A stretch of DNA of 26,308 nt from a virus. Location of the stretch: positions 1-26,308 of the IMG/VR virus record IMGVR_UViG_3300042691_003293, one strand, 5' to 3'. Positions 5,233-23,966 of this stretch are shown here, one piece after another. Below the pieces are notes generated by a model. The model was not told where the DNA came from and ran no database searches. It saw only the letters and a program-made list of their open reading frames with translations. The position numbers and the translations under genes are program-made. Position 1 is the stretch's first letter, and each line of letters opens with the position of its first letter.

Positions 5233-5556
5233 TTATTTGCCTAACTTGGTAGCACGTTTAGCCATTTTGCTAACTTCGCCACCTTCTTCTCCGCCTACTT
5301 CGGGTTGTTGTTTAGCATCTTGTGTTTTAACAGTTACACCACTACCGTCAAATTTTACTACTAGATTGTGTAAAATTTGTTGTTCTGGGGGTAATGTTGC
5401 TTCTTGTTCCCAACGAGCTGCAAATGCCTCATAAGAAATTGGGATGCCCATATTTTGTAGGGCACCCCAAGTCATTGGTGCTTTTGTTTGTTGATTATCG
5501 CCTGCCCCTTGAGCTGTGAACAAAGTTCTAACTAAAGGATCGATTGTTTCAATTAC
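5233..5556 (-). CDS. Conserved phage protein reached by probable -1 frameshift from the upstream ORF
   Basis: The frame opens after a TAA (complement of 5569-5571) just upstream of the A9 run and encodes about 107 residues from 5556. The first in-frame usable start is a TTG at 5523 with no SD, yet the protein-like sequence VIETIDPLVRTLFTAQGAGD begins before it. There is no ATG. The preceding gene ends in A9G followed by TAA. A -1 slip on A-AAA-AAG joins the two frames exactly and would give a ~443-residue fusion. The C-terminus GGEVSKMAKRATKLGK is basic. Alternatives are a TTG or ATT start, transcriptional slippage, or a homopolymer error that split one gene. Function unknown; probably virion-associated like its partner. 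Confidence 0.6.
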   Translation of the reverse strand, partial: VIETIDPLVRTLFTAQGAGDNQQTKAPMTWGALQNMGIPISYEAFAARWEQEATLPPEQQILHNLVVKFDGSGVTVKTQDAKQQPEVGGEEGGEVSKMAKRATKLGK

Positions 5557-6563
5557 TTTTTTTTTGAGTTAAGTAACATTGCTAGGCGTCGACTGTAGTC
5601 AACGCTTTCGCGTTTTTCTCTGCCTACTTCTGGTGCTGGAGGAGTTGGTAACTCTTCTGCTCCCATTTCGCCTTCTGCGCCAGGCATTGGGGGTAATCCG
5701 CCTGCTGCTGCGCCTGGTACTGCACCGCCTGGGGCTGCGCCCATAGTTGATACTTCGCCGCCTGAAACGATTGAAAGAGCATTTGAAAGGCCTTGACGAC
5801 TTGATTCTAAAGCTGTATAAATTGCTTCTAGTGAAGGTTTAACTGCTTCTTGATATTGTTGAGCAACATCGCTGCCTTGAGTCTCTCTTATAGAGTCTAA
5901 CAATTCTAATAACTGTTCGGCCTTCATTGCGGCTACATCTTCTAGCCAGCCTGTAATACGGTCAACCATATCTTTAGTTGCCATGATAGTTTCAGCTTTG
6001 TCTTCTTCGCCTTCTAGTAAAATCCAGCTAGCTTGTGCTTCATTTAAATCATAACGTAATGATAGTTCAGCCTTTAGTTCTTCACGATCTACACCTTCGC
6101 CTAAATTAATTTGAGCAATCGTTTTGTTAATCCAGCTTAATGGAACTGAATGTGATAATGCGCGGCTACGAACTGTGTTAACAATGTAACCTTCGTCGGT
6201 TTTTTCTGCTTTAGCTTTTTTAATAGCTTTATCTCGTGAACCCATGTATTCGTCCTTTCCAGATTCGACTTCGCCATCTCCGTCGTAATCTTTATCTGCT
6301 TTGTCAGAATCGTCACGCTCTAATATCTCTTGGTTGATACAGTCAAGCATCAAACGAGTTTTTTGATATTGTGGGCTTTCAAGCACAGAATCAAAAGCTT
6401 CTGAAAGCTCCATCTGGCTCAACTTTGTACGCAGTTTGTTACGTGCATCTTCAAGTTGCACATCGTTAAACTGTTCGAAGTTGATTTTGTAACCAAACTT
6501 CTTTGCCAAGTTCTCGTTGAGTACTTTAGCTGTTACGGGTTTATGAAATTCTCTAATTTGCAT
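5553..6563 (-). CDS. Uncharacterised virion/prohead-type protein with capsid-targeting-like N-terminus
   Basis: 336 residues, function not recognised. It begins MQIREFHKPV, one of the shared N-terminal peptides of this window, with LNE at residues 15-17 as a possible prohead-protease site. Residues ~50-240 are acidic and helical, with an Asp/Glu-rich stretch (DDSDKADKDYDGDGEVES). Residues ~270-315 are a Pro/Gly/Ala-rich linker (PGGAVPGAAAGGLPPMPG). It ends RRLAMLLNSKKK on an A9G slippery run leading into the next frame. The start is supported by SD TAGGA 9 bases upstream and a full TATAAATA late box at 6591-6598. Acidic helices with a flexible tail suit an internal or scaffold-like protein, but that is inference. 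Confidence 0.7.
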   Translation of the reverse strand: MQIREFHKPVTAKVLNENLAKKFGYKINFEQFNDVQLEDARNKLRTKLSQMELSEAFDSVLESPQYQKTRLMLDCINQEILERDDSDKADKDYDGDGEVESGKDEYMGSRDKAIKKAKAEKTDEGYIVNTVRSRALSHSVPLSWINKTIAQINLGEGVDREELKAELSLRYDLNEAQASWILLEGEEDKAETIMATKDMVDRITGWLEDVAAMKAEQLLELLDSIRETQGSDVAQQYQEAVKPSLEAIYTALESSRQGLSNALSIVSGGEVSTMGAAPGGAVPGAAAGGLPPMPGAEGEMGAEELPTPPAPEVGREKRESVDYSRRLAMLLNSKKK

Positions 6564-6590
6564 GATTCTGTCCTAGAATTCTTATACGTG

Positions 6591-6598
6591 TATTTATA
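6591..6598 (-). promoter_or_regulatory. Full T4-type late promoter box TATAAATA
   Basis: TGTATAAATACACG on the minus strand, the complete T4 late consensus octamer, 27 bases before the ATG at 6563. It overlaps the stop codon of the upstream gene (6594-6596). Confidence 0.65.
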
Positions 6599-7049
6599 CA
6601 AAACTCCACTTAAACATCTTGGATATTTCTTCCTTGTAGTGGGTTTCTTTTAATTCGCTTTCTTCTAACTTATTTAACAAAATTAAGTACCTTGTAAAAT
6701 CTTTTGCAAGTTTAATATTGTGTTTGAAAACTTGTGTGTCGCAATGTTTGGCCCAGTAGCAAGTGTCTAACCGCTTAATTTCGTGAAACTTATCAAGCTG
6801 TACATTGTTATAAGCCTTAGCTGCCATTAGGGCGCAAGTTTTTAGAAAGAACTGTTCTATAAGATTTCGATCTTTATAATTGTACATGGCCCAATTGCCG
6901 TTTTTTATCTGTTTGACTAGGTATTGTTTATAAACAATGCCGCCATCAGGCAATACAGTTAAAGGCAATTTCTGTTCTAGTTCAGAGCTTAACTCCTTGG
7001 CTAGTTCTTTAATACGGATTGTTGGTATTTTACGTTTTGATTTTTTCAT
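6594..7049 (-). CDS. Conserved hypothetical phage protein, basic N-terminus
   Basis: 151 residues, not recognised. It starts with a Lys/Arg-rich stretch (MKKSKRKIPTIRIKEL), followed by mixed helix/strand sequence with many Lys and aromatic residues (NGNWAMYNYKDRNLIEQFF) and a helical, charged C-terminus. There is no signal peptide or membrane segment. The start overlaps the end of the upstream gene by 20 bases and lacks a clear SD, so translational coupling is likely. Co-linear with genes 5233-8691 and probably part of the same late, virion-related operon. Confidence 0.65.
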   Translation of the reverse strand: MKKSKRKIPTIRIKELAKELSSELEQKLPLTVLPDGGIVYKQYLVKQIKNGNWAMYNYKDRNLIEQFFLKTCALMAAKAYNNVQLDKFHEIKRLDTCYWAKHCDTQVFKHNIKLAKDFTRYLILLNKLEESELKETHYKEEISKMFKWSFV

Positions 7050-7287
7050 TGGCTACTACTAAAGGATCTTCCATTCCTATCTTAGTTACCAAACTTTTGC
7101 GGATCATGGCCTGAATCCTGAACTGCTCGTGCTCGCTCAGAGTTGCCAGTTTGATAGGTTTTGATAATTTCTTAAGTATATCAGATTCTTCTAGTGTTGT
7201 CCATATTTCAAAGTCATCAATAAGAGCACGTTTGCTCTGTGGCGAATGTGCTTCTTCAAATCCAGTTAGCAAATCGCTAATTTTCAT
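7030..7287 (-). CDS. Small hypothetical protein with shared N-terminal tag
   Basis: 85 residues starting MKISDLLTGFEEA, which fits the common N-terminal pattern (M-K/R-hydrophobic-x-acidic-hydrophobic), with Glu at 11-12. The rest is helical and charged (SKRALIDDFEIWTTLEESDILKKL). No known domain recognised. Its ATG overlaps the TGA of the preceding gene as ATGA, so the pair is translationally coupled. Possibly a small capsid-packaged or assembly protein. Confidence 0.65.
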   Translation of the reverse strand: MKISDLLTGFEEAHSPQSKRALIDDFEIWTTLEESDILKKLSKPIKLATLSEHEQFRIQAMIRKSLVTKIGMEDPLVVANEKIKT

Positions 7288-8000
7288 TTTAGTCCTGCAA
7301 TGGTTAACATTTTATCAAGTAACTTGTTGTCAGCAGATTCTTCAAATCCTGTGTATTTCATAATACCCTGACTGACTGCGCCGCCCATCTTTTGTTTGAA
7401 TTCTGGACTTAGTCCGGGGCCATTGACTCCACAAATCTTTAAAACAGTTTGTGGATCCATTTTAGCTTCCCACTGAGCTGGGGGTAATACAGCAATAGCT
7501 TTTCCGTTAGGATCTTTTGGAACCCATCCGTCTTGTGTGACTGCTTTAATACGTGCTTCAATTTGTGCTTTTTCCCAAGGCTGTTTTACTTGTGATAGCA
7601 TCGATTGTAGTTGTGATGAGTACTGTTTGACTAAGCCTGCTTCATCTGCTGGTTGTTCTTCGATAGTTTTAGAAGCATCTACTTGTTGTCCAGGTTGAAT
7701 CTTTGGCACTTGCATAGTTAATTTATTGTTGTCGCCTGGCTGTAGTGCTGTGGCTTGTACAGTAGTTGTATCGCCGCTAGGTTTTTGAATGTCAACTGTA
7801 CCGTCTGGTTTAACTTGTTGTACTTTACCAACCATTGCCCCTGGCATTTCTTCATTAACCTTTACAGGCTTTAACTTAGCATCTTGTTTACCTGGGCCGT
7901 ATAACGGAACTGGGCCTTGAGCTTTGGTAGTAGCTTTCTTATTGTAGATGTGAGCCTTAACACCTTTTTTATGCTCGCTTACGACTTGATTAACTTTCAT
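7284..8000 (-). CDS. Hypothetical protein with shared N-terminal tag and SH3-like segment
   Basis: 238 residues from ATG at 8000, preferred over an in-frame upstream start at 8027. GGAG lies 6 bases before it, and the resulting N-terminus MKVNQVVSEHKKG joins the shared tag family with VSE as a possible cleavage site. Residues ~50-95 contain a repeated strand pattern (GKVQQVKPDGTVDIQKPSGD) resembling a small SH3/KOW-like barrel. The middle is Pro/Gln-rich and the C-terminal ~110 residues are helical (YSSQLQSMLSQVKQPWEKAQ). The gene overlaps its upstream neighbour by 11 bases and the downstream gene as ATGA. Function unknown. Confidence 0.7.
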   Translation of the reverse strand: MKVNQVVSEHKKGVKAHIYNKKATTKAQGPVPLYGPGKQDAKLKPVKVNEEMPGAMVGKVQQVKPDGTVDIQKPSGDTTTVQATALQPGDNNKLTMQVPKIQPGQQVDASKTIEEQPADEAGLVKQYSSQLQSMLSQVKQPWEKAQIEARIKAVTQDGWVPKDPNGKAIAVLPPAQWEAKMDPQTVLKICGVNGPGLSPEFKQKMGGAVSQGIMKYTGFEESADNKLLDKMLTIAGLK

Positions 8001-8691
8001 TTTGTTCTCCAATGCTGAGTTTAGCACTTTCTAATTTGTCTATGTATTTACGCAATTTGTCTATCTGTCCGCGAGCCCTGAGCAGTTTAAATGCTAAGTT
8101 TTCTACACTGTATTCTCCGCCTTGCTCTAAACCTGCTTGGCGCAATTTACGTATGCTTGCCATAGTTTGCTTGGCTTTGTCTAGCTCATTAGACTTTAGT
8201 GCTTGATTAATGTGGCTAGCATAGTTCCTAGCTTTGGCTTTAACTTCTTTGTGTGTTGCTTTAGGAGCATCACCTTTTGGTTCACTTAACCATTTGTCGT
8301 TAAGCACACTATAAATGCCAGACGAATGATGTGTTTGTTTGTAGTCCTGTACGTACAGTTCTACATCTATGTCTTTGATAGTAATATTATATTTGCTGTT
8401 GTAGACATTTTTCTTTGCATCAAACAATTCTGCTTGTTCTGCATCTTTAACGACTGCAACTAAGTGTAAATCCAAGTCGCTGTTGTCGCTGTAACCATAG
8501 CTGGCATTACTGCCGCTGATTGTAATGTCTTTTAAGTTTAATCGTTCTACGTTCAAATACTCGGCAAAATGCTTGGCAATGACCATGAGCTTGTGACGTA
8601 TTTCTGGAATGAGTTTACTGTCCTCCCAAAGTTTGGGATTCAGTTGCTTGTGATGACTAATTGGATCGACTGAAAGTTCTTGGAAGTTCAT
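7990..8691 (-). CDS. Nucleotidyltransferase-fold protein (DNA polymerase beta superfamily)
   Basis: 233 residues. The hallmark of the superfamily is SGSNASYGYSDNSDLDLHL at ~59-77: Gly60-Ser61 and the metal-binding pair Asp72-x-Asp74, with IKDIDVELYVQD supplying a third acidic residue at Asp109. It would transfer a nucleotide to an unknown acceptor (RNA, protein or small molecule). A C-terminal helical region (~150-233) is rich in Lys, Arg and Glu. The N-terminus MNFQELSVDP loosely fits the shared tag. The start has no SD and lies 4 bases after a TAAATA box, so the mRNA may be leaderless. The fold is convincing; the substrate cannot be read from sequence. Confidence 0.8.
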   Translation of the reverse strand: MNFQELSVDPISHHKQLNPKLWEDSKLIPEIRHKLMVIAKHFAEYLNVERLNLKDITISGSNASYGYSDNSDLDLHLVAVVKDAEQAELFDAKKNVYNSKYNITIKDIDVELYVQDYKQTHHSSGIYSVLNDKWLSEPKGDAPKATHKEVKAKARNYASHINQALKSNELDKAKQTMASIRKLRQAGLEQGGEYSVENLAFKLLRARGQIDKLRKYIDKLESAKLSIGEQNES

Positions 8692-8695
8692 TCTG

Positions 8696-8701
8696 TATTT
8701 A
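8696..8701 (-). promoter_or_regulatory. Late promoter box 4 bases before the nucleotidyltransferase start codon
   Basis: TTAAATACAGAATG on the minus strand. The box lies inside a perfect inverted repeat TTCTGT-ATTTA-ACAGAA (8691-8707). With so short a gap, any RNA starting here would be leaderless. Confidence 0.5.
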
Positions 8702-8707
8702 ACAGAA

Positions 8708-9115
8708 TTATAAGCCTATGAACTTTAAAATGTGGGGAAGATTTACTGAATGTCCACTGAGCCAACCTGTACCTGCGATGAACGCCATTGCGGCCATGGC
8801 ATACATAGTCCATTTGCTTTTGATTTTTTCTAGCTCACCAATGCGGCTTGCTAATTTATTGTGAGTCTCAACATCTTCTGCGTGTAACTTGTCTGCATGT
8901 TCAAAATACTTGCCACTGTTAAGGCGATATTCTTCTTGCATTTTTTCTAGTTTGTCTGCTAGTAGGTCACGAGTGTTATCTAAACAGTCGTGCATGTCTT
9001 TGACATCAGCTTTGAGGTCAACTAATTTTTCGTTGATGTTTTCAACTTGTGTTTCTAATACGCTTACACGCTCGGGTAAGACTGCTAGTTGTGCTACAGC
9101 TTCTTTCGTGGCCAT
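8708..9115 (-). CDS. Coiled-coil protein with C-terminal membrane anchor
   Basis: 135 residues from ATG at 9115; a longer reading would need a TTG at 9130. Residues ~15-100 are heptad-like coiled coil (VLETQVENINEKLVDLKADV ... SRIGELEKIKS). One hydrophobic segment follows at ~104-122 (YAMAAMAFIAGTGWLSG) and a short C-terminal tail. The layout resembles small phage tail-anchored proteins such as XhlA-like lysis accessories or inner-membrane spanin-like proteins, but no family is certain. A long structured leader (9131-9175) and a TAAATA box at 9211 precede it. Coiled coil and anchor are seen; a lysis role is inference. Confidence 0.7.
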   Translation of the reverse strand: MATKEAVAQLAVLPERVSVLETQVENINEKLVDLKADVKDMHDCLDNTRDLLADKLEKMQEEYRLNSGKYFEHADKLHAEDVETHNKLASRIGELEKIKSKWTMYAMAAMAFIAGTGWLSGHSVNLPHILKFIGL

Positions 9116-9134
9116 TGAAGACTCGTCCAATATT

Positions 9135-9175
9135 AATTAATGTGTCTGGGCACGTTACCCAGTGTATGATTAATT
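9135..9175 (-). promoter_or_regulatory. Structured leader hairpin before the coiled-coil gene
   Basis: Two nested pairs of arms: AATTAAT (9135-9141) with ATTAATT (9169-9175), and CTGGG (9146-9150) with CCCAG (9158-9162). It ends shortly before the ATG at 9115. There is no T tract, so it is not an intrinsic terminator; it may stabilise the mRNA or control translation. Confidence 0.4.
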
Positions 9176-9210
9176 GCCTAAATAGTTGTTTTATATGAGC
9201 CTTCTACGAG

Positions 9211-9216
9211 TATTTA
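9211..9216 (-). promoter_or_regulatory. T4-like late promoter box before the coiled-coil gene
   Basis: TGACTAAATACTCG on the minus strand, overlapping the stop codon of the upstream ORF (9214-9216) and about 95 bases before the ATG at 9115. Confidence 0.5.
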
Positions 9217-9618
9217 GTCACGTTGCGAAAAAATTATGTTGCGTGATGGGCCATCTGTAACGAACACATCGTAATTTTGTTCCATGCTTTCGTCAAGACC
9301 GCTGATGTATGGAACGCCGTCAAAGTCTTCGATTAGATAACCAATTGGATTGTCATTGCTTTGGAAGAAGTTTTCACGCTCTGTATGGAATTCAAATTGC
9401 CAAACACGAATAATATTATTTGTATTAAAGCCAAATACATTTCCGCTTATTTCTATGACTTTAGGTTTTTTGTTAAAACTGATGTTTGCTCTCATACCTA
9501 GTGTTTGTAGTACTGTTTGAAAGTTTTGTTCCTTCCAACGGTCAGCTTCTTTGCCAGGCTCGGTTCTATACTGTCCTGTATTTGTTATATCAACTGTTGT
9601 GTATAGCATATATTCCAT
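9214..9618 (-). CDS. Conserved hypothetical T4-like phage protein
   Basis: 134 residues beginning MEYMLYTTVDITNTGQYR; residue 4 is an alternative ATG at 9609 with GGAA in front. It resembles a family of small hypothetical proteins in T4-like marine phages that share a TTVDITNTGQ-like start and an EQNFQTVLQTLGMRANI segment (from memory, unchecked). The sequence looks like a compact alpha/beta fold with no catalytic motif, signal peptide or membrane segment. A TAAATA box ends 5 bases before the first ATG, so the transcript may be leaderless. Function unknown. Confidence 0.7.
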   Translation of the reverse strand: MEYMLYTTVDITNTGQYRTEPGKEADRWKEQNFQTVLQTLGMRANISFNKKPKVIEISGNVFGFNTNNIIRVWQFEFHTERENFFQSNDNPIGYLIEDFDGVPYISGLDESMEQNYDVFVTDGPSRNIIFSQRD

Positions 9619-9623
9619 GCCTA

Positions 9624-9629
9624 TATTTA
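9624..9629 (-). promoter_or_regulatory. Late promoter box 5 bases before an ATG
   Basis: TGTTAAATATAGGCATG on the minus strand. It lies directly downstream of the terminator at 9638-9664, so it restarts transcription after that stop. Confidence 0.5.
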
Positions 9630-9637
9630 ACAGAGGT

Positions 9638-9664
9638 AAAAAAGCCTACTATGAAAGTAGGCTT
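9638..9664 (-). terminator. Intrinsic terminator of the 120-residue protein gene
   Basis: 8-bp perfect stem AAGCCTAC / GTAGGCTT with a 7-base loop, followed on the minus strand by a run of T (complement of A at 9638-9643). It sits 30 bases after the stop codon of gene 9694-10056. Confidence 0.85.
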
Positions 9665-9693
9665 AGTCTTCCCATCCCTGAGAAATTTAACTA

Positions 9694-10056: not shown

Positions 10057-10112
10057 AATAATCTCCTCTGAATATGCTTATCAAACTCACGACTCTGTGA
10101 GCTTTGTATATG

Positions 10113-10118
10113 TATTTA
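10113..10118 (-). promoter_or_regulatory. T4-like late promoter box of the 120-residue protein gene
   Basis: TACTAAATACATA on the minus strand, 56 bases before the ATG at 10056. A 5-bp hairpin CTCAC / GTGAG (10086-10101) lies in the leader. Confidence 0.6.
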
Positions 10119-10140
10119 GTATTGGTACAAAAAAATGGGT

Positions 10141-11176: not shown

Positions 11177-11196
11177 ATTCCTTTTCTTCCTACGTG

Positions 11197-11202: not shown

Positions 11203-11206
11203 TTTG

Positions 11207-11235: not shown

Positions 11236-11271
11236 GTGGGTTGGTTTAATCTTACTGTAACATTACATGAC

Positions 11272-12750: not shown

Positions 12751-12966
12751 ATGTTTAATATTGAAACAATCATCGACACCGTTCAAGGTGCTCAAAAGTC
12801 TTTCGTAGAAACTTACGTATCGGACAAAAAAGTTCAAGCAGAACTAGTTAAACTAACAGAAGCCCAAGCTAAATTTGCTAAAGGTTCTTATCAAACTAGC
12901 TTGACACTTGCTCAAGCAGTGTTTAAAAACGTTAACGATACAGTATACGCTAAGAAAGGAGCTTAA
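12751..12966 (+). CDS. Phasin-like small helical protein (tentative)
   Basis: 71 residues, almost wholly amphipathic helix, starting MFNIETIIDTVQGAQKSF and ending AVFKNVNDTVYAKKGA. The length, MFN start, Gln/Ala/Lys-rich helices and lack of Cys recall phasins, the coat proteins of polyhydroxyalkanoate granules, but it is shorter than typical phasins and the resemblance could be compositional. It has a strong SD (AGGAG), its own sigma70 promoter and shares a terminator with the next gene. High, early, host-polymerase-driven expression is therefore likely. Confidence 0.55.
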   Translation: MFNIETIIDTVQGAQKSFVETYVSDKKVQAELVKLTEAQAKFAKGSYQTSLTLAQAVFKNVNDTVYAKKGA

Positions 12967-13272: not shown

Positions 13273-13298
13273 AAGGACTCTTAGGAGTCCTTTTTTTT
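13273..13298 (+). terminator. Strong intrinsic terminator closing the cassette
   Basis: 8-bp perfect stem AAGGACTC / GAGTCCTT with loop TTAG, running into eight T (13291-13298). It also separates the convergent minus-strand gene, whose stop codon (13297-13299) overlaps the T tract. Confidence 0.92.
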
Positions 13299-13701
13299 AT
13301 GCTATTGATTCGTTGTCAAACAAGTTGGGATATTTCTTGCCCCAGTTACGCATGATAATAGCCGCTTGTGCATTGGCTTCATTTTCTTGTGGACTACCAG
13401 TTGCGCCCGGATCTTCACCGTCTAGTTCTTTGTTTAGATCTTGTTTGTAGTGGACAAGTTCATGTGCCAATGTGCGGCACACATCCATAATGTGGCGATT
13501 CTTAACTGTAACGTCGATGTGTTCACCACCGTACCCACCAAAGCTCTTACGTTCAACGCTGACAGCACTATCAAACTTAAAATCAAACTTGGGTAATGAT
13601 TTAAGTTCTAAGTGTTCTGCAGCAAATTTAACAAAGGCAAGTAGGACCTTGTACGTTGTCGTACGATCCATTCCTTCAGTTAATACTTCACGGATTTTCA
13701 T
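13297..13701 (-). CDS. HExxH zinc-metallopeptidase-like protein with shared N-terminal tag
   Basis: 134 residues. TLAHELVHYKQDLN gives the zinc motif His80-Glu81-x-x-His84, and PQENEANAQA about 25 residues later offers Glu106 or Glu108 as third ligand, a gluzincin-like order. The N-terminus MKIREVLTEG fits the shared tag, with LTE-Gly as a near-ideal T4 gp21-type cleavage site. No signal peptide. If active, it may be carried in the virion or process phage proteins. SD AGGAAAG lies just before the ATG, and the start overlaps the previous gene as ATGA. Confidence 0.75.
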   Translation of the reverse strand: MKIREVLTEGMDRTTTYKVLLAFVKFAAEHLELKSLPKFDFKFDSAVSVERKSFGGYGGEHIDVTVKNRHIMDVCRTLAHELVHYKQDLNKELDGEDPGATGSPQENEANAQAAIIMRNWGKKYPNLFDNESIA

Positions 13702-14135
13702 TTCTTTCCTGTTGGCACACAGTTGTCCACTGTCTTGCCACCTTTCTTCTTAGTGCCCATGCGTTTGTAACCATCCCAGCAGGCTTTGCCATCAACACCT
13801 TTTTGTTTAGCTTCGCCAATGTTCTTATCAATGCCACGACTAGCAACACCACCTTGCTTACGCTTGGCCGCTAGTTGTTCAATACCATGACGAATCTGTT
13901 CTAAGTTCTGTTCCAAACCCATGAACATGCCGCCTTTGGCTAGACGTGTAATCTTTTCCCAAGCTACTAAATCATCGCTTTCTGCTAACTGTGCTAGTTC
14001 TTTAAGCTGATTACGTGCTTGAACAATGCGTCCTTTAAGACTCATTGGATTAGCTTTTTCATGTCCGTACACAACAGGATCATTAGGATCACCTGTCATG
14101 TCAATTGGAGTTTCTAGTAGTTGATTGATCTTCAT
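13698..14135 (-). CDS. Basic-tailed protein with shared N-terminal tag
   Basis: 145 residues from ATG at 14135; the longer frame from 14162 overlaps the upstream gene and lacks the tag. It starts MKINQLLETPID (LLE as possible cleavage site). A helical middle follows (~30-100). The C-terminal ~30 residues contain the module CWDGYKRMGTKKKGGKTVDN followed by Cys-Val-Pro, a Cys-flanked, Lys-rich motif that I recall from the ends of many unrelated marine-phage proteins. Possibly a DNA-binding, capsid-packaged protein; function unknown. Confidence 0.7.
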   Translation of the reverse strand: MKINQLLETPIDMTGDPNDPVVYGHEKANPMSLKGRIVQARNQLKELAQLAESDDLVAWEKITRLAKGGMFMGLEQNLEQIRHGIEQLAAKRKQGGVASRGIDKNIGEAKQKGVDGKACWDGYKRMGTKKKGGKTVDNCVPTGKK

Positions 14136-16243: not shown

Positions 16244-16600
16244 TTACTCTCCAAAGCCGTGTTGATGTGCTGGATACATACTTGGATGCTCTCCACGAAT
16301 ATCTGCTGGGTGTTTAGGTGCTTGCATACCACCGCCTGCATCTACAGTAACAGCATCAATATCTGCGTACTTTTCCTTAGGAGTGTTGCCGTAAGGCTCA
16401 CATCCGTCATTGTCTGCTAGATCTACAATCTGTCGTAATCTACGCATATCATCGCCTGCATGTGATAATGGGCTAGCATCTTCTGGTTCATCTATAGTAG
16501 CTGTTGGGTGGGCAACAATAACTGTGGTTGTTTGTTCAGGTTCTTGCTCTACACCATCAATCATGTCTATCATGTTACGAATAATATCTTGGATTCTCAT
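16244..16600 (-). CDS. Acidic hypothetical protein with shared N-terminal tag
   Basis: 118 residues from ATG at 16600, with AGGA about 8 bases upstream; the longer frame from 16666 runs across the promoter and into the divergent gene. It starts MRIQDIIRNMIDMIDGVEQE, an amphipathic helix fitting the tag pattern, then a low-complexity acidic and Pro/His-containing tail (EPEDASPLSHAGDD, HPADIRGEHPSMYPAHQHGF). No domain recognised. First gene of the leftward virion operon 16600-14144. Confidence 0.65.
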   Translation of the reverse strand: MRIQDIIRNMIDMIDGVEQEPEQTTTVIVAHPTATIDEPEDASPLSHAGDDMRRLRQIVDLADNDGCEPYGNTPKEKYADIDAVTVDAGGGMQAPKHPADIRGEHPSMYPAHQHGFGE

Positions 16601-16642: not shown

Positions 16643-17842
16643 ATGATAAACAAAGAACCCTTTCAAAAACTAATAACAGAACTTAAAGAAAACGGCAAAT
16701 ATCGTGTGTTTAACGACATTGTGCGTGAAAACGGCAAATTTCCCCAAGCTATCTGGTATGGCCCTTACAATATTAAAAACATTGTAAACTGGTGCTCAAA
16801 CGATTACTTGGGTATGGGACAGCATAAAGTTGTGTTAGATGCTATGCACACAGCATTAGATCACACAGGTTCAGGTTCTGGCGGTACTCGTAACATTGGC
16901 GGTACTAGTCACTATCACGTGGCATTAGAACACGAACTTGCCACATTACACAAGAAAGAAAAAGCCATACTATTTTCAAGTGCTTATGTAGCCAACGAGT
17001 GGACCATAATTGCCCTAGCTAAAATTATTCCTAACATTGAATTTATCAGCGATGAAAACAATCATAACAGTATCATTGTGGGCATCCAACATAGTAAGGC
17101 TAAGAAAGTTATCTTTAAGCACAATGACTTAGAAGATCTAGAACAGAAACTTAAGATTAGTTTTGCTATGGGCAATGTTCCTTGTGTAATTTTTGAAAGT
17201 GTTTATTCAATGGATGGCGATTGCGGACATATCAAAGAAATATGTAAACTTGCTGAAAAATATCGAGCTATTACCTACATTGATGAAGTGCATGCCGTAG
17301 GCTTATATGGGCCAACTGGTGCTGGTAAAGTAGAACAACTTGGACTTGAAAATAAAATTGATATAGTCAATGGTACCTTGGGAAAGGCCTACGGAGTTCA
17401 AGGCGGATATATTGCTTGTGATAAGATTGTAGGCGATGCTATCCGTAGTGTTGCAGCTGGATTTATATTCACTACAAGTATGAGTCCAGTTACTTGTGCT
17501 GGTGCATTGGCTGCAATTAAGTATCTTAAAGCGCATCCTGAGATACGTGAGAAACATCAAGAACGTGCTCGTAAACTAAAGCATCGTTTAGGTGTTGCTG
17601 GTATTACTGTTATGGACTGTGCTACAGAACATATTGTCCCTGTGCTTGTAGGTGATGCTAAACGTTGCAAGGCCATGAGTGATGCATTACTCAACGAGTA
17701 TAACATCTATGTACAACCAATCAACTATCCTACAGTTGATGTGGGAACGGAGCGGCTACGATTTGCGCCCACTCCGTTTCACGATGATGGTATGATTGAA
17801 GACCTAGTTGAAGCTCTGGTTAAAGTGTTTAATACAAACTAA
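16643..17842 (+). CDS. hemA: 5-aminolevulinate synthase (Shemin pathway)
   Basis: PLP enzyme condensing glycine and succinyl-CoA to 5-aminolevulinate, the first step of tetrapyrrole synthesis in alphaproteobacteria; cytoplasmic. Full length at 399 residues. Signatures: GKYRVF with Arg21, [12 protein letters not shown], the ALAS-specific [13 protein letters not shown] (Thr82, Asn84, Ile85 at the succinyl-CoA pocket), [12 protein letters not shown] (Asp214, His217) and GTLGKAYG (Lys248, PLP lysine). KBL and AONS, its close relatives, lack the TRNIxGT motif, so ALAS is the better call. It is the lone plus-strand gene here, flanked by leftward phage genes: an auxiliary metabolic gene that could raise haem or (bacterio)chlorophyll precursor supply during infection. 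Confidence 0.93.
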
Positions 17843-18442: not shown

Positions 18443-18453
18443 TTCAATTTCCT

Positions 18454-19089
18454 TTAATCGTATGTTACAGTATCACTGTCACCTAACGCCCATTTAGGGT
18501 TTGTTTCTACTACGTATTTTTTAGTACACACTTTAAAGTCTGGGTGCAACATTTCTTTAGGGTTACTGGCAGCGTCTAAAAATATACAACGGTTGTTTGG
18601 TTGAGCTGCATACTGTCCGTTATTTAACTCTATAAAGTTAAAACTCTTATGATCTTCTGGCCATTCGCTATAGCTAGTATCTAGAATATTAACATCTGGG
18701 CTTGCATTGTCTACAGTAAACATATAGTTGCCTGTGTGTAGCTGACGATCTTTCGCATAAAATTTACAGCTGAGATTTCGCAAGAATGTTTTTTGTATTA
18801 CTGCAATGTCATAACTAAAACAGTCCCAAATTTGCAGTGTGTCTAGCGGCAAGAACTTTTCTGGTTCTAAGTCATCAGTTCTGCTTACATAAGCATGAAG
18901 TGGTAACTTATCATACAGTGCTCCATATCTAGGAAGATACGCTTCTATACGAAATGCTTGACTACGTAGACTTTTAATACTAACCCATATACAAGGTTCA
19001 TACTCGCCGTGTCCTTGTTTAAAATCATACAAGAACTCTCTACGTACAAAACAATGTACCGGCGGTAGGTTCGCTACCAAAAAGCTCAT
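18454..19089 (-). CDS. Conserved hypothetical protein of T4-like aquatic phages
   Basis: 211 residues, soluble. The pattern MSFLVANLPPVHCFVRREFL, then GHGEYEPCIWVSIKS, YGALYDKLPLHAYV, PLDTLQIWDCFSYD, SFNFIELNNGQYAAQPNNR and a C-terminal HPDFKV...YVVE is, from memory, a widely conserved but uncharacterised family in cyanophages and related T4-like phages, supporting the phage assignment. No catalytic motif is evident. It ends shortly before the lipoprotein gene and starts ATGA-coupled to the HAD gene. Confidence 0.75.
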   Translation of the reverse strand: MSFLVANLPPVHCFVRREFLYDFKQGHGEYEPCIWVSIKSLRSQAFRIEAYLPRYGALYDKLPLHAYVSRTDDLEPEKFLPLDTLQIWDCFSYDIAVIQKTFLRNLSCKFYAKDRQLHTGNYMFTVDNASPDVNILDTSYSEWPEDHKSFNFIELNNGQYAAQPNNRCIFLDAASNPKEMLHPDFKVCTKKYVVETNPKWALGDSDTVTYD

Positions 19090-19985
19090 TTTTTCTTGGC
19101 CTTTCCTGCTTTCATGTTAGCCATCCAATGTGCTAACTGTCCTTTGCGGCCACCTTGTTTAGCAACCTTACGTAGTGTGCTTACACTTGCTTTAGTTGGA
19201 ACTCCGTGACGTTTGCTATCGCCTTTGTCTTGTGGATTTTTTCCATCCGCAAAATTTTCGCCTACTCCTCCGCCGTCGCCACCTGCACCGCCACCATCGC
19301 CGCTATATCCAGTGGCATAACCATACCCACCAAACGGTCCTGGGCCATATGCCGCATAACGAACTCGACGTTTTTTCTTACGCTCTTCTAATGTTTCGTT
19401 TGTTCTGTCGTATTCGCTTGCTTCACCTTCTAAACTTACATGCCACGCATAGAATTTAGTCTTAGGATATTCTTTCTTAAGTTCTACAAAGGACTGCAAA
19501 TTGGGTTCAGCATCATCATACATGATTGCTTTGTTATAACGACCTTTGTTTAGTAGATTACGAATAATAATCTTTTTCTTTTCTTCTGTTTGAATTTTAC
19601 CAGTCATGTTGCCTGCGCGATAGACATGCACCTTGTTCATGTCTACACCGTACTTACGGAATGTATCTAAAAACAATTCTCTATCATCAAAGTCTGCACG
19701 AGCAGTAACCATTACTACCTTGTTGCCAGTAGCAATGTCTTGTTTGAGTTGATTCAACATTGGTATGATTGGTTTAGCGTTATCAAAGAACTCTTTAGCA
19801 TTTCGAAACGCACCAAAGTCAAAAGATTCGCCGTCTTGTAATTTGTAATGTGTGAACTCGTGGCTGTTAAGACTCTTAACTATTTGTCCGTCTTTAACCA
19901 CATGCACTTTCGTTTGTGTGTGGACCAGCGTGTCATCTATATCAAAGATGACTAATTTGCTTGGAGTAAACTCTTGTGCTCTCAT
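19086..19985 (-). CDS. HAD-superfamily phosphatase with Gly-rich linker and basic C-terminal module
   Basis: 299 residues in three parts. Residues ~10-185 form a HAD domain: motif I FDIDDTLVHT (Asp15, Asp17), motif II VMVTARAD (Thr94), Lys-rich motif III near 130-138 and motif IV IMYDDAEPN (Asp157-Asp158). It should hydrolyse a phosphomonoester; substrate unknown. Residues ~212-242 are a Gly/Tyr-rich linker (GPGPFGGYGYATGYSGDGGG). Residues ~245-299 are a basic module (NPQDKGDSKRHGVPTKASVS, then RKVAKQGGRKGQLAHWMANM) that I recall at the ends of other marine-phage proteins. The N-terminus MRAQEFTPSK fits the shared tag. ATGA overlaps on both sides. Confidence 0.8.
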   Translation of the reverse strand: MRAQEFTPSKLVIFDIDDTLVHTQTKVHVVKDGQIVKSLNSHEFTHYKLQDGESFDFGAFRNAKEFFDNAKPIIPMLNQLKQDIATGNKVVMVTARADFDDRELFLDTFRKYGVDMNKVHVYRAGNMTGKIQTEEKKKIIIRNLLNKGRYNKAIMYDDAEPNLQSFVELKKEYPKTKFYAWHVSLEGEASEYDRTNETLEERKKKRRVRYAAYGPGPFGGYGYATGYSGDGGGAGGDGGGVGENFADGKNPQDKGDSKRHGVPTKASVSTLRKVAKQGGRKGQLAHWMANMKAGKAKKK

Positions 19986-20269
19986 TCACAGTTCCAACGG
20001 CTTAATGCTTTTGCTTTAGGAGTAGGGCGACCTTTCTCGTCTTTCATTGGACCTTTGTTGCCACTCATACGAGCACAAAAACTCTTACGGCGTTTAGCAT
20101 CCTTACTGCCTGCTTTTAGTTTACTAGGCTTAGTAGTTACTGCTGTCTTTAACTTACTACCTGGATTCTCTCTACGATAAGCATTGACAGCTTTCTGACT
20201 AAGACCGTCTGTCTTATCTTTTTTATTAACTTTGTTCCAATCTTCGTTAATGATTTCATTGATTTTCAT
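19982..20269 (-). CDS. Small basic protein with shared N-terminal tag
   Basis: 95 residues. The tag MKINEIINEDW (INE-Asp, gp21-like site) precedes a very basic domain: LSQKAVNAYRRENPGSKL, VTTKPSKLKAG, KRRKSFCARMSGNKGP, ending ALSRWNCE. This module is, from memory, common in marine T4-like phages, often as a C-terminal domain of larger proteins. Net positive charge and two Cys suggest DNA binding or a small structured knuckle. SD AGGAG 7 bases before the ATG. Candidate internal capsid protein. Confidence 0.7.
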   Translation of the reverse strand: MKINEIINEDWNKVNKKDKTDGLSQKAVNAYRRENPGSKLKTAVTTKPSKLKAGSKDAKRRKSFCARMSGNKGPMKDEKGRPTPKAKALSRWNCE

Positions 20270-20435
20270 TTGTTACTCCTGGTGGGCAACAAAATCTAGG
20301 ATCGCACCAATCGTATTGTGGATCATAGTCTTGTCCAATGTAGCCAGCATAGGCTAGGCTCATGCTGATGCCATACATGGCTAACCCTGTAATGAATTTA
20401 TTACACAGGGCTGTAAGGATTTTTTGGAGTGTCAT
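20256..20435 (-). CDS. 59-residue membrane or exported small protein
   Basis: A short gene from ATG at 20435 with SD AGAGGA 9 bases upstream. MTLQKILTALCNKFITGLAM then YGISMSLAYAGYIG forms one hydrophobic segment (~5-34), with LAYA-Gly as a possible signal-peptidase site. The tail is acidic, aromatic and Cys-rich (YDPQYDWCDPRFCCPPG). Its stop overlaps the start of the next gene by 14 bases. No family recognised. It fills the gap between the SNase and basic-protein genes. Confidence 0.6.
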   Translation of the reverse strand: MTLQKILTALCNKFITGLAMYGISMSLAYAGYIGQDYDPQYDWCDPRFCCPPGVTNENQ

Positions 20436-20469
20436 AGCCGTCGTCCTCTGGATATACTGGATAGTCCAT
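20401..20469 (-). CDS. Possible 22-residue ORF
   Basis: MDYPVYPEDDGYDTPKNPYS ending PV. Its ATG overlaps the SNase stop as TAATG and it contains the SD of the next gene. Pro/Tyr/Asp-rich with no homology I know. It may serve only to carry ribosomes to the following ORF. Confidence 0.3.
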   Translation of the reverse strand: MDYPVYPEDDGYDTPKNPYSPV

Positions 20470-20903
20470 TATTGGCACCAACTTTGTTTAGCTTCGCCAT
20501 AATACTCTCTAGCGAATCCATTTGCAATTAACATTGCACGTAGACTTTGTCCATCTAGGATCATATCGCCTAGCACACGACCGCCAAACTTGTCCCAACT
20601 GTACAGAACAACTTGACGCTTTAACGATTTAGCAACAGCATTTTTAGTAAATGCCGAAGCCTGCTCACCACGTTGTGCTTCGCTTGGGCACAGAGCGCGA
20701 TGTCCTTTTTCTGGAGTATCAACACCAAATACCCTAACTGCTAATTGCGGCTTAAGGGGTGCTGGTAAAAACGGTGCAGCGATTACAACAGTATCACCAT
20801 CCGTAACACTTAAAATTTGTGCGTCATACATTACGCCCTGTGGTGTTTTTTGTGCAAATGCTAATGCTGGTAATGCCAGCAGTATTAATAGAAACTGTTT
20901 CAT
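20469..20903 (-). CDS. Secreted staphylococcal-nuclease-like (SNase/thermonuclease) protein
   Basis: 144 residues. Signal peptide MKQFLLILLALPALAFA, cut before Gln18, so the enzyme acts in the periplasm or outside. SNase motifs: VTDGDTVVI (Asp35, Asp37), VRVFGVDTPE (Arg57, Asp62, Thr63, Glu65, matching SNase Arg35, Asp40, Thr41, Glu43) and FGGRVLG (Arg109, matching Arg87). It should cleave DNA or RNA in a calcium-dependent way. Last main gene of the HNH-DUF454-SNase operon. SD AAAGG before the ATG lies near a 7-bp inverted repeat (20906-20932). A role against competing phage DNA, or nucleotide scavenging, is inference. Confidence 0.88.
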   Translation of the reverse strand: MKQFLLILLALPALAFAQKTPQGVMYDAQILSVTDGDTVVIAAPFLPAPLKPQLAVRVFGVDTPEKGHRALCPSEAQRGEQASAFTKNAVAKSLKRQVVLYSWDKFGGRVLGDMILDGQSLRAMLIANGFAREYYGEAKQSWCQ

Positions 20904-20905
20904 TA

Positions 20906-20932
20906 GTAGTACCTTTTTAATTTAAGTACTAC
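20906..20932 (-). promoter_or_regulatory. Inverted repeat in the SNase leader
   Basis: GTAGTAC (20906-20912) and GTACTAC (20926-20932), perfect 7-bp arms with a 13-base loop. The arm next to the ATG includes the end of the SD AAAGG, so folding could restrict translation. Confidence 0.4.
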
Positions 20933-20938
20933 TATTTA
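20933..20938 (-). promoter_or_regulatory. Possible late box before the SNase gene
   Basis: GGTAAATAGT on the minus strand, 29 bases before the ATG at 20903. The flanks are less like the CTAAATAC/TTAAATA consensus of the others, so this is weaker. Confidence 0.3.
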
Positions 20939-20939
20939 C

Positions 20940-21359
20940 CTAGAAACTATTGTTGAACCAGCCTATCTTGCGATTTTCAGAAATGCGGCTATCGTATTCG
21001 GCAATAGAGCCAGGAAAACGCCAAGCCCAAATAGCAACAAGTCCCATAAAAATTGCGGTGCTGAGAATTCCAATTGGTTTTACTCCTGTGAAGAACATGA
21101 TGAGTAAACTAGTACTCATCATTCCTAGCATAAAAAACTTCATCTTGGTTGGAAAAACACGTTTAGTATTCCAGTTAGTCAAGAATGGGCCAAATAATTT
21201 ATGATTATACAACCAGGCGTGCATCTTTGGACTGCCCTTGGCAAAGCAATAAGCCGCAAATACAACAAAGATACTGTAAGGTATGCCGGGCGTGATTAGC
21301 CCAACATACGCCATGCCTAAACTTAAAAAGCCCAGGATCTTCCATAGAAATTTTTTCAT
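20940..21359 (-). CDS. DUF454 (YbaN-type) inner-membrane protein
   Basis: 139 residues matching the DUF454/YbaN family: the N-terminal helix then GLITPGIPYSIFVVFAAYCF, AKGSPKMHAWLYNHKLFGPF and NW correspond to the family's LPGLPTTPF, FAxSSPxxHxWLxxHxxFGP consensus. Three to four membrane segments (~5-22, ~27-42, ~76-92, ~95-112) with a basic loop between. The family is common in Proteobacteria and of unknown function, so this is a bacterial-type gene in a phage setting. Start is ATGA-coupled to the HNH gene. It may alter the host inner membrane early in infection. Confidence 0.85.
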   Translation of the reverse strand: MKKFLWKILGFLSLGMAYVGLITPGIPYSIFVVFAAYCFAKGSPKMHAWLYNHKLFGPFLTNWNTKRVFPTKMKFFMLGMMSTSLLIMFFTGVKPIGILSTAIFMGLVAIWAWRFPGSIAEYDSRISENRKIGWFNNSF

Positions 21360-21868
21360 AAATTCATAAACTGTAACCAGCCCTCATGTCTAACTTGAAA
21401 CGGTTGTTTCTTACGCTTATTTACAAGTTCGTAATAGTCAGGCTTATAAGGTTTGATTCGAGGTTTCCAGTGCTTGTCAGCCTTGTTAGCATTGCATGGA
21501 GCACATGCAGTCACAGTATTTTCCCAAGTGGTCTTACCACCCTTTGAAACTGGTTGTACATGATCTAGTGTAGAAACTTTACGTTCTATATGCGAACCAC
21601 AGTATTGGCAATGTCCGTTGTCTCGTAAGTATACATTACTACGGCTAAAACGAACTGTAGTTTTTGCTTTCATGTACTCGCGAAGCATGATAACGCTTGG
21701 GACTGGGGTTTCCCATGTAGCTGAATGTACAATCCAATCGTCGTGCCATGCTAGTACATCAGCCTTATCTAAGACCATGTATCTGATGGCATCTTGCCAA
21801 TTAATTACACTTAATGGAAGAAAGCTAACTGGTTGTCCGTCAGCATTCAAGACTAGAGTGTCCGACAT
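21356..21868 (-). CDS. HNH endonuclease family protein
   Basis: 170 residues. An N-terminal ~75-residue region (MSDTLVLNADGQPVSFLPLS ... AIRYMVLDKADVL) is typical of a bacterial and phage HNH subfamily. The HNH domain has zinc-binding Cys87-x-x-Cys90 (HCQYC), the catalytic STLDHVQPVSKGG (His103), WENTVTACAPCNANKADK (Asn117, Cys122, Cys125). It should nick or cut DNA. It is a whole gene in an operon, not sitting inside an intron, so a homing role is not evident. SD AAAGGAAA and a consensus sigma70 promoter precede it; likely an early gene. Confidence 0.85.
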   Translation of the reverse strand: MSDTLVLNADGQPVSFLPLSVINWQDAIRYMVLDKADVLAWHDDWIVHSATWETPVPSVIMLREYMKAKTTVRFSRSNVYLRDNGHCQYCGSHIERKVSTLDHVQPVSKGGKTTWENTVTACAPCNANKADKHWKPRIKPYKPDYYELVNKRKKQPFQVRHEGWLQFMNL

Positions 21869-21916
21869 TTTTATTTCCTTTTGATTGTGTTTACAGACCC
21901 AACCGACTGAGCATTA

Positions 21917-21945
21917 ATTATATGCTCATAAAGTACTTATGTCAA
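21917..21945 (-). promoter_or_regulatory. Consensus sigma70 promoter of the HNH-DUF454-SNase operon
   Basis: TTGACA (complement of 21940-21945), exactly 17 bases, TATAAT (complement of 21917-21922): a full consensus match. Inverted repeat GAGCAT-ATAATTA-ATGCTC (21909-21927) is centred on the -10, the same layout as at the nrdA promoter. The ATG at 21868 lies about 42 bases beyond the expected transcription start. Confidence 0.9.
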
Positions 21946-21951
21946 GCCCGT

Positions 21952-22500
21952 TTAGGCCAGCATGTTTTGGGCAAATTCTAGTCCAGATCGATCCAAAGCA
22001 TTGCACCATTGGTCTTTATTATCTGAACCATACACTAATTCTTCATCTGCCGACGATAAACACCAACTGTGTTGTTGGTTCCAAGGAGGAGTACCGTTTA
22101 TTTCACCTTGTAGTTGGCCTTGCGCCCATCCACACATACCTAAAAATAGTCGCCATTGATATGGACGATCTCCCATAGCCAGTCTAGGTAATATATCATC
22201 TGCACTACTCACGCTAAACTTATCATTAATTCTGAGTGTGTTTTTACTTACCCATTCGTTTGAATGTAAGAAGCTAAGACTTTTTACATTAACTGGGCCA
22301 CCAAGGTAAACAAATCCAGGAACATCTATTTGGAATCCTAGTTGTTCGCCAAACTCTGGAATACTCATTTGACTTCGTTTGTTTAATACAAGACCAACAC
22401 TACCTTGGTTGTGATGCTCTGTAATCAGTATTACAGTCTTGTACCAAAAATTGCCTTTGACCGCAGGCGGCGCAATTAAAAGATTGCCAGTTAAGTTCAT
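21952..22500 (-). CDS. YqgE/AlgH family protein (UPF0301)
   Basis: 182 residues matching the UPF0301/DUF179 family: NLLIAPPAVKG, TVILITEHHNQGSVGLVLNK (family LLIAMP, VILxCEHxxxGAxGLVIN), VYLGGPVNVKSLSFLH and RLFLGMCGWAQGQLQGEI (family GGPV, FxGYAGWxxGQLExEI). AlgH was named as a regulator of alginate genes, but its molecular function is not established. Cytoplasmic. Members occur in some large myophages. No SD; a full TATAAATA box ends 5 bases before the ATG, so leaderless late expression is likely. Confidence 0.88.
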   Translation of the reverse strand: MNLTGNLLIAPPAVKGNFWYKTVILITEHHNQGSVGLVLNKRSQMSIPEFGEQLGFQIDVPGFVYLGGPVNVKSLSFLHSNEWVSKNTLRINDKFSVSSADDILPRLAMGDRPYQWRLFLGMCGWAQGQLQGEINGTPPWNQQHSWCLSSADEELVYGSDNKDQWCNALDRSGLEFAQNMLA

Positions 22501-22505
22501 GAAGT

Positions 22506-22513
22506 TATTTATA
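22506..22513 (-). promoter_or_regulatory. Full late promoter octamer 5 bases before the YqgE start codon
   Basis: CTATAAATAACTTCATG on the minus strand: TATAAATA is the exact T4 late consensus. Any RNA started here has essentially no leader. Confidence 0.6.
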
Positions 22514-22515
22514 GA

Positions 22516-23172
22516 TTAGCGGTTGCGTATAGAAGATTTTACATCACCAACTGTAAAATAATTTTTACCTTTGCTTTTTGCAAATGCTGGATTCTGTTCC
22601 CATACTTTATGCAAACTGAGTCCTGATGATTTTCCGCTAGGAAGAATTAAATCGCCGCCGCCTTTCTTACCTAATACTGTGCTGTCTGATGCATGTACAA
22701 ATGCCGGCATAAAGGTTCGCATATAGATAGTTCCAATATCTTCGCCTGGTTGCACTCCTGCATTTTTATAAAACTGATATACATAATCAAGTTGCTGTAC
22801 TGCTGTCATCTTTGCAAGTTCAGCCTTACTAGTTCCGAGGCCTCTTGCAGTTCTTTCAGTAAAACCAATTAAGCCTACTGAAACATTATTAGGATCTTTT
22901 GAACTTGGACTAAACGATCCTGCTGTTTCAAATTTAATAATCTTATATAGGGTATCGTAACTAATGCCTAATGCTTGAGCAATCTTGTGTAATTTTTTGT
23001 TGAAGTCTGGGTCTTGTATATTTGCATTTGGTTTAGCAGGATCAGTTTTTCCTGCAGCTTTTTCACCTGAACTGCCGCTAGCACTAGTTCCTATACTAAA
23101 TGGTTGTTTGCCCAGCAATGCACCCATAAATTTATCAATGTCTTCTTTGATTTTAAATTCGTTGAATCGCAT
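22516..23172 (-). CDS. Lytic-transglycosylase/lysozyme-like peptidoglycan hydrolase with shared N-terminal tag
   Basis: 218 residues. Tag MRFNEFKIKEDIDKFMGALL with IKE-Asp as possible prohead-protease site, a disordered Ser/Gly/Lys/Pro linker (~25-55), then a lysozyme-fold domain: ALGISYDTLYKIIKFETAGS (candidate catalytic Glu82), SVGLIGFTERTARGLG, and a helical segment LDYVYQFYKNAG. It should cleave the glycan strands of peptidoglycan. No signal peptide, so it is probably carried in the virion for entry or released by a holin. It stands next to an M23 peptidase with a related first 20 residues. SD AGGA 7 bases upstream; 3-base gap after the M23 gene. Confidence 0.82.
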   Translation of the reverse strand: MRFNEFKIKEDIDKFMGALLGKQPFSIGTSASGSSGEKAAGKTDPAKPNANIQDPDFNKKLHKIAQALGISYDTLYKIIKFETAGSFSPSSKDPNNVSVGLIGFTERTARGLGTSKAELAKMTAVQQLDYVYQFYKNAGVQPGEDIGTIYMRTFMPAFVHASDSTVLGKKGGGDLILPSGKSSGLSLHKVWEQNPAFAKSKGKNYFTVGDVKSSIRNR

Positions 23173-23175
23173 ACA

Positions 23176-23703
23176 TTATCCTATATTGGCCATTGGGTCT
23201 ACTGGACGGCCAGCAACACGTTTTGACCAATGTAGATGAGGACCTGTTGAGTAGCCAGTGTTTCCAGATAAGCCAACAACCTGACCTTTCTTTACTTGTT
23301 GCCCTGATGATACTTTAGATTGTGACAAGTGTAATAATGAATGTATTACTCCTCCAGAATTAATTTCAACAAATGTTCCGTTCATGTTGTCAGATCCGGA
23401 CCTTGAAACAACACCATCTTGCGGTGCTTTTACTGGAGTACCAATTGGAACTGCAAAATCTGTACCCAAATGCATTCCACTAGAACGTCTTCCAAATGGA
23501 CTAGATACTGGTCCGTTAACTGGAAGTATTTCTCCATCTGTTGATCCTGGTGAATTGGGTTGAGTTTTATCTGATTTGTCGGTTGCGTCAGATGTTCCTG
23601 ATACTTTATCAACAACATCTGAAATGGCAGTTGACGGGGTTCCAAGTATGGATCCCATAAAACGATCTATTGATTCACTAGTTGCAAACTCTTTGTATCT
23701 CAT
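23176..23703 (-). CDS. M23 (LytM-type) peptidoglycan endopeptidase with shared N-terminal tag
   Basis: 175 residues. N-terminus MRYKEFATSESIDRFMGSIL aligns with that of the neighbouring transglycosylase-like protein. After a Ser/Thr/Asp/Pro linker (~30-58) comes a complete M23 domain: PVSSPFGRRSSGMHLGTDFA (His78, Asp82), HSLLHLS (His125) and GPHLHWSK (His156, His158), the zinc ligands and catalytic histidines of LytM. It should cut peptide cross-links in peptidoglycan. No signal peptide. Paired with the glycan-cutting enzyme downstream, it forms a two-enzyme wall-degrading module. ATGA overlap with the preceding basic-protein gene. Confidence 0.9.
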   Translation of the reverse strand: MRYKEFATSESIDRFMGSILGTPSTAISDVVDKVSGTSDATDKSDKTQPNSPGSTDGEILPVNGPVSSPFGRRSSGMHLGTDFAVPIGTPVKAPQDGVVSRSGSDNMNGTFVEINSGGVIHSLLHLSQSKVSSGQQVKKGQVVGLSGNTGYSTGPHLHWSKRVAGRPVDPMANIG

Positions 23704-23966
23704 TTGCGTGTTCCATAATCAGGTAGAGGTCCGCCGTATTTGCGGCCTTTAATCTTTTTGCCGCCCACGGTTACACGAACCTTTCGTTTTCCAGCAGTTA
23801 TTAAATGACTCTTTTCGCCATCACGGGCACGGAGTCCTTGACTCTTACAACTTGCTAGATTACTTGCACCTAAGTCTTTATCAGGGGTTCCGCCTGTACA
23901 TAATGCACGGCTGGCTTTTTCGTCTAGTTTTAATTCAACAGGAGTGGTAAATTCGTTTGCTCTCAT
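23700..23966 (-). CDS. Small basic protein with shared N-terminal tag
   Basis: 88 residues. Tag MRANEFTTPVELKLDEK, then a basic module: ALCTGGTPDKDLGASNLASC, KSQGLRARDGEKSH, KRKVRVTVGGKKIKGRKYGG and PLPDYGTRK. The SNLxSCKxQGLRxRDG and KGxKYGGPLPDY elements recur, from memory, in marine T4-like phages. Strongly basic, two Cys. No SD: a TAAATA box ends 7 bases before the ATG. It begins the operon basic protein-M23-transglycosylase, so it may be packaged with them. Confidence 0.72.
   Translation of the reverse strand: MRANEFTTPVELKLDEKASRALCTGGTPDKDLGASNLASCKSQGLRARDGEKSHLITAGKRKVRVTVGGKKIKGRKYGGPLPDYGTRK

Follow-up and report, generated by a model that had tools for sequence, protein, structure and literature searches.

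An N-terminal leader resembling T4 capsid-targeting sequences, on probably packaged and enzyme-rich proteins of an uncultured T4-superfamily phage

The IMG/VR virus record IMGVR_UViG_3300042691_003293 is a 26,308-base fragment without head genes, analyzed here at its full length (the window), in which 40 genes were called by a simple custom caller. Twelve proteins encoded in it, all on the minus strand and with ATG starts, begin with a peptide matching M-[KRQN]-[IVFAY]-x-[EDQ]-[FILV] (the tag). From the sequence, it had been predicted that this shared N-terminus is a T4-like capsid-targeting leader of a packaged cargo set. An internal ATG is required as the start for three of the twelve (7284-8000, 13698-14135, and 16244-16600), and the caller starts 7990-8691 too late, which gives 11 tagged genes as called and 12 with the start used in the original prediction. 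As had been claimed, the bodies behind the tags are unrelated in sequence, except that the proteins at 22516 and 23176 have approximately 25 N-terminal residues in common. The twelve are listed below, where a slash marks a putative cut and the number after a site is the residue number of its Glu.

5553..6563, minus strand: 336-residue homologue of gp247 of Pseudomonas phage PA5oct; tag MQIREF, possible late cut at LNE17; matches phrog_14154 (virion structural, 1.9e-9).
7030..7287, minus strand: 85 residues, no assigned function; tag MKISDLL, weak cut-like FEE12.
7284..8000, minus strand: 238 residues, no assigned function; tag MKVNQVVSE/H; starts at the internal ATG at 8000.
7990..8691, minus strand: nucleotidyltransferase-fold protein (AAD(9)/MNT-like fold, weak); tag MNFQEL, no cut site.
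13297..13701, minus strand: HExxH metallopeptidase-like protein; tag MKIREVLTE/G.
13698..14135, minus strand: 145-residue basic protein with a C-terminal CWxGYK-type motif; tag MKINQLLE/T; internal ATG start.
16244..16600, minus strand: 118-residue acidic protein; tag MRIQDII, no cut site; internal ATG start.
19086..19985, minus strand: HAD phosphatase of the polynucleotide-kinase type (phrog_415, 6e-12); tag MRAQEFTPS directly before the phosphatase strand KLVIFDIDDTL, leaving no space for a cut site.
19982..20269, minus strand: DUF6321 basic protein; tag MKINEIINE/D.
22516..23172, minus strand: lytic-transglycosylase/lysozyme-like protein; tag MRFNEFKIKE/D.
23176..23703, minus strand: M23 peptidase; tag MRYKEF, no hydrophobic-x-E site (TSE10 only).
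23700..23966, minus strand: 88-residue basic protein; tag MRANEF, LDE16.

The 11 matches among the 40 called genes compare with a mean of 0.13 when residues were shuffled within the first 15, and with a mean of 2.05 and a maximum of 7 when the N-termini of the window were permuted position by position. More than 100 IMG/VR relatives of the protein at 5553-6563 exist, on contigs that in some cases measure 116 to 356 kb, and four large relatives were gene-called, namely G003 (356 kb), G005 (266 kb), G001 (191 kb), and G002 (142 kb). These are large T4-superfamily phages, whose nearest cultured gp23 relatives are Sinorhizobium phage Phosso (72%) and Vibrio phage 2.275.O (71%), followed by PA5oct (70%) and the CBB/GAP32 group (65-67%). 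The tag was found in 18/414, 7/148, 13/270, and 11/305 genes of the four relatives (4.3%, 4.7%, 4.8%, and 3.6%), where 0.5 to 1.2 were expected. The control phages gave 3/256 for T4 (1.2%), 8/570 for CBB (1.4%), 1/314 for S-SRM01 (0.3%), 0/186 for HTVC008M, and 1/350 for phiKZ (0.3%); the totals are 49/1137 in the relatives against 13/1676 in the controls (p=4e-10). Shuffles and control phages are thus far below the window and its relatives, and an equal frequency elsewhere, which the prediction had named as its refutation, was not observed. The window is denser in tags than the relatives, probably since it covers a virion gene cluster. Tagged members were found in 34 body clusters. A free two-component mixture model of N-termini was dropped, as it failed to separate the leader from signal peptides and Rossmann starts and exceeded its null only moderately; it was replaced by a held-out test on the pattern above.

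That pattern covers residues 1-6 only, so that residues 7 onward can test it independently. Among 25 tagged families that have no member in the window, 44% carry Glu at residue 9, compared with 3.8% of untagged families (p=7e-9); at other positions Glu was at or near background. The sequence [ILVFM]-x-E at residues 7-9 occurred in 40% of these held-out families against 0.7% of untagged ones (p=3e-12), and approximately 50% of tagged families have an L/I-x-E cut site at the leader end, compared with 6% of untagged ones. T4 gp21 cleaves after L/I-x-E (PMC9026906). In the literature on the T4 IPIII leader, residues 4 and 7 serve targeting and residues 8 and 10 serve cutting, and Asp at residue 10 stops cutting while targeting is still allowed. 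The window leader has the register of the T4 gp24 propeptide (MAKINELLRE/S) and is one residue shorter than that of IPIII (MKTYQEFIAE/A), and hence its L7 and E9 are equivalent to I8 and E10 of IPIII. When MAKINELLRE was used as an unfitted query, 6 of the 40 window genes scored at least 16, against 0.12 expected. Only M1, E5, L7, and E9 are invariant before residue 16 among 23 sequences of the HExxH family (13297-13701), and its homologue in cyanophage B23 begins in register with MNYKQFLRE/S. In the structure model of the HExxH protein, which has weak similarity to the SPRTN and abylysin folds, residues 1-8 are of low confidence and the fold begins after them. The prediction had further ascribed a hydrophobic-x-Glu step at residues 7-12 to many of the twelve. 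This was borne out for five leaders, in which a good cut site ends no later than residue 10 (VSE9, LTE9, LLE8, INE9, and IKE10), and weakly for that at 7030 (FEE12 only). It failed for 7990, 16244, 19086, and 23176, which have none, and for 5553 and 23700, in which LNE17 and LDE16 come too late. Some homologues of the 7990-8691 protein carry MKILDFTE/A or MFIKDFTE/A.

Closely similar bodies were found behind different leaders. The 23700 protein is 89% identical to a G002 protein from residue 17 only, and their leaders differ (MRANEFTTPVELKLD against MKIHEIISE/E). Between the DUF6321 protein and its G001 counterpart, which are 91% identical, the differences fall mostly in the leader (KINEIINE against RAKDILNE; G001 tag MRAKDILNE). 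HAD phosphatases of different phages begin with MRAxE[FI]xP, MKVTEILKE, MKISELNAN, MISFKEYLTE, or MKNFKQFF, the last two being in the T4/cyanophage dialect. All 38 homologous loci of the lysozyme-like protein (22516) are tagged, with 23 different leaders and widely differing spacers, and in 30 of them the similarity to the query begins no earlier than residue 33; the family of the 7030-7287 protein is tagged in 44 of 48 members. In a tandem gene pair of G005 (L129:2189-3317), the first 90 bases are 81% shared and the remainder is at background level; the product of one gene is an M23 peptidase, and that of the other has a body that matches nothing in Pfam. This indicates that a second gene received a copy of the leader. 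An M23 peptidase was present in all five uncultured records checked (window included) and tagged in all five if Leu is permitted at residue 3; that of PA5oct is untagged and has no mass spectrometry (MS) flag. The tagged cargo of the relatives adds a GH19-type hydrolase, a LysM-lysozyme, and a deaminase. Separately, a tagged 280-residue protein of G001 (L118:12218-13060) fuses a DUF6321 body, a CWxGYH-type segment, and a KASRxLC body, which are separate tagged genes in the window.

A gp21-like protease, for which a search had been suggested with the prediction, is encoded in G002 and G003 (PF03420) together with gp23 (PF07068), and both are flanked by gp20-, gp67-, and gp22-like genes. The protein in the gp67 slot, between portal and protease, is homologous in four phages and starts with MKINDIITE/G in PA5oct and MRYNEF in Phosso, which are both dialects of the window. 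The gp22 of CBB starts with MSKLDKFLNE/S. Virion evidence was taken from the electrospray-ionization tandem MS flags of the PA5oct record, except for the stretch 245-255 kb. The tag pattern plus a cut site was found in 3/93 flagged proteins and in 0/238 other called genes (p=0.022), and one of these three virion proteins sits between portal and protease. A motif broadened from the relatives of the window was found in 8/93 flagged proteins against 4/238 others (p=0.005). Hydrophobic-x-E near the N-terminus alone was not enriched in the MS-detected PA5oct proteins (11/93 against 30/238), so that a cut site without the tag is uninformative. CBB_299 (MRFSQITE/D) is listed in the published CBB virion MS table (PMC5259590). 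The 5553-6563 protein of the window is a direct homologue of the MS-flagged PA5oct gp247 (BLASTP E=4e-9). A tblastn search of this protein against cultured phages gave no match, and the PA5oct link comes from the direct comparison and from the order of the following block.

4508..6563, minus strand: the 5553-6563 gene, 5233-5523, and an exonuclease gene (4508-5194), then NrdA, recognized by eye at the left end.

The order is similar in PA5oct, where the MS-detected gp247/gp246 are followed by the exonuclease and NrdA. PA5oct also has a second gene annotated as head maturation protease (180349-181020; L211:30349-31020), which is MS-flagged and far from the head cluster; it is possibly a diverged paralogue like SPN3US gp117.

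These features resemble T4 IPI-IPIII and Alt, which bear gp21-processed capsid-targeting sequences. Common to both are a short N-terminal leader on unrelated bodies, leader exchange between genes, the form E/Q-hydrophobic-hydrophobic-x-E, and gp21, gp22, and gp23, which are found in relatives of the window. Unlike the T4 internal proteins, the window leader is mostly one residue shorter (E9, not E10), reads K/R-[IVAF]-x-E where T4 has K-T-Y-Q-E, precedes many more enzyme bodies including cell-wall hydrolases, and is in several cases conserved in an uncuttable form. The T4 gp24 propeptide is nearly the same peptide as MKINEIINE, MRISELLNE, and MKITELVRE, although gp24 is a shell vertex protein, unlike the tagged cargo. 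Virion proteins of the cultured jumbo relatives PA5oct and CBB share the leader on a few MS-detected members and a similar order around the exonuclease, but fewer proteins are tagged than in the window. Ejected internal virion proteins of the T7 gp16 type carry a transglycosylase domain inside the head, and a lytic transglycosylase in the head would be common to T7 and, by prediction, the window. We know of no shared leader or protease trimming for the T7 gp16 type. The ejection proteins of phiKZ and SPN3US are likewise packaged and trimmed by a gp21-related protease (PMC5694885). Their cuts fall at A/S-x-E and several of their propeptides exceed 100 residues, whereas the leaders of the window have 9-12 residues and [ILVFM]xE; the A/S/G-x-E site with a long propeptide was not found in these leaders, and phiKZ has the tag in 1/350 genes.

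The enrichment, the T4 register, the head genes of the relatives, and the PA5oct virion MS support the packaged-cargo interpretation, which for the window's own proteins is read from sequence. We consider it probable, at approximately 77%, that the twelve N-termini are capsid-targeting leaders of the T4 type and that the cargo bearing them is packaged and rich in enzymes. In the proposed mechanism, a leader of 9-12 residues, whose commonest form is M-K/R-hydrophobic-x-E/D-hydrophobic-hydrophobic-x-E, would dock unrelated proteins on the gp22/gp67 prohead core during head assembly. A gp21-type protease would cut after hydrophobic-x-E in about half of the tagged families and free the body into the head, and the leader would probably be retained in the others. 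The bodies, namely the lytic transglycosylase, M23 peptidase, HAD phosphatase, HExxH metallopeptidase, nucleotidyltransferase, and small basic proteins, would be loaded into the head alongside the DNA and enter the cell at infection, with the cell-wall hydrolases carried in the head acting at entry. Because the leaders match T4 head-directing leaders, the phage probably packs a set of enzymes together with its DNA and injects both, and several of these enzymes would cut the cell wall; for the window's own proteins we infer packaging, targeting, cutting, and injection alike.

Several points weigh against this interpretation. Since the window's own record is fragmentary and includes no head genes, a protease or scaffold is not demonstrable in it. 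A good L/I-x-E is missing from about half of the window leaders, and trimming is probably not general, because a good cut site occurs by residue 10 in only 5 of 12 and several conserved tags, such as that of the HAD protein, have no cut site. The broadened motif was chosen after the relatives had been seen. The PA5oct counts are small, and the flags include replication enzymes (ribonucleotide reductase, ligase), so that MS detection is no proof of a location inside the head. A chance match to the tag-plus-cut pattern lies within the exonuclease, and it made up most of what was retrieved when fused cargo proteins were scanned for internal tags. The late-promoter-like NATAAATA is one of the upstream signals with the highest enrichment in these genomes, and tagged genes belong to units with it more often (24/57 against 248/1080 in the four relatives, p=0.0014), although this link is modest.

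A different destination for the leader was also considered, in which it would attach proteins to a virion part or assembly site other than the head core, such as the baseplate or tail, with the lysozyme and M23 peptidase as tail enzymes. The best PHROG match of the 22516 protein is indeed a baseplate hub, those of the 23176 protein include tape-measure proteins, and the PA5oct MS does not tell head from tail. We nevertheless regard tail docking as unlikely, as the leader is also present on head-core-slot genes between portal and protease and resembles T4 head propeptides, and 'Internal protein' is the name of the chain that ranks second among the solved-structure matches of the 22516 protein. 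A search for the gp5 OB-domain had no match anywhere, control genomes included, and is uninformative. The leader might instead mark proteins for a gp21-type protease, or for some other factor of the host or phage, as a maturation or activation propeptide without any packaging signal, which would agree with L7 and E9 being among the most constrained positions. This is rather improbable given the many conserved tags without a cut site (MRAxE[FI]xP directly before the HAD domain) and the T4 precedent, in which targeting and cleavage reside in a single peptide and Asp at 10 abolishes cleavage alone. That the similarity is a by-product of A-rich early codons at translation starts, or of a few duplicated genes, is very improbable. 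Lys/Ile-rich starts are common, the proteins at 22516 and 23176 have 25 residues in common, and the G005 tandem pair is alike in its 5' DNA, but Glu is confined to residue 9 and coupled to residues 1-6 across 25 families with unrelated bodies, and the shuffles, the control phages, and the fully tagged lysozyme-like family (38/38) speak against it. It is already refuted as a whole explanation, and duplication stays as a route by which the leader spread.

Beyond the capsid-targeting function itself, we lean slightly toward a broader reading, in which an uncultured jumbo T4-superfamily lineage uses the leader as an exchangeable module, in cuttable and permanent forms, to load its head with a broad enzyme set delivered with the genome. 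This set would include the lytic transglycosylase, M23 peptidase, GH19-type cell-wall hydrolases, metallopeptidase, HAD phosphatase, nucleotidyltransferase, and deaminase, making the cargo far more enzymatic than that of T4. The principle is already known, as T-even phages carry at least 10 leader-bearing internal proteins (PMC12373910). The lineage, the shorter dialect, the density, and the enzymatic range may be new; the open-access literature was searched and contained no experiment on these proteins, and an earlier description may exist elsewhere. With a readable leader, genes of jumbo T4-like phages now annotated as hypothetical could be listed as candidate injected proteins open to testing, as happened with the T-even anti-restriction proteins, and its natural variants offer test material for targeting versus cutting residues. 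If true, cell-wall hydrolases and other enzymes in a T4-type head would alter ideas of what such heads deliver.

Three further genes of the window were observed.

21952-22500, minus strand: YqgE/AlgH-family protein (NF001266, E=2e-28, below the cut-off), unusual in phage.
16643-17842, plus strand: 5-aminolevulinate synthase (TIGR01821, E=6e-170, above the cut-off), a phage-borne haem/tetrapyrrole gene.
12751-12966, plus strand: 71-residue protein, by eye like a phasin (polyhydroxyalkanoate granule protein), with no NCBIfam match.

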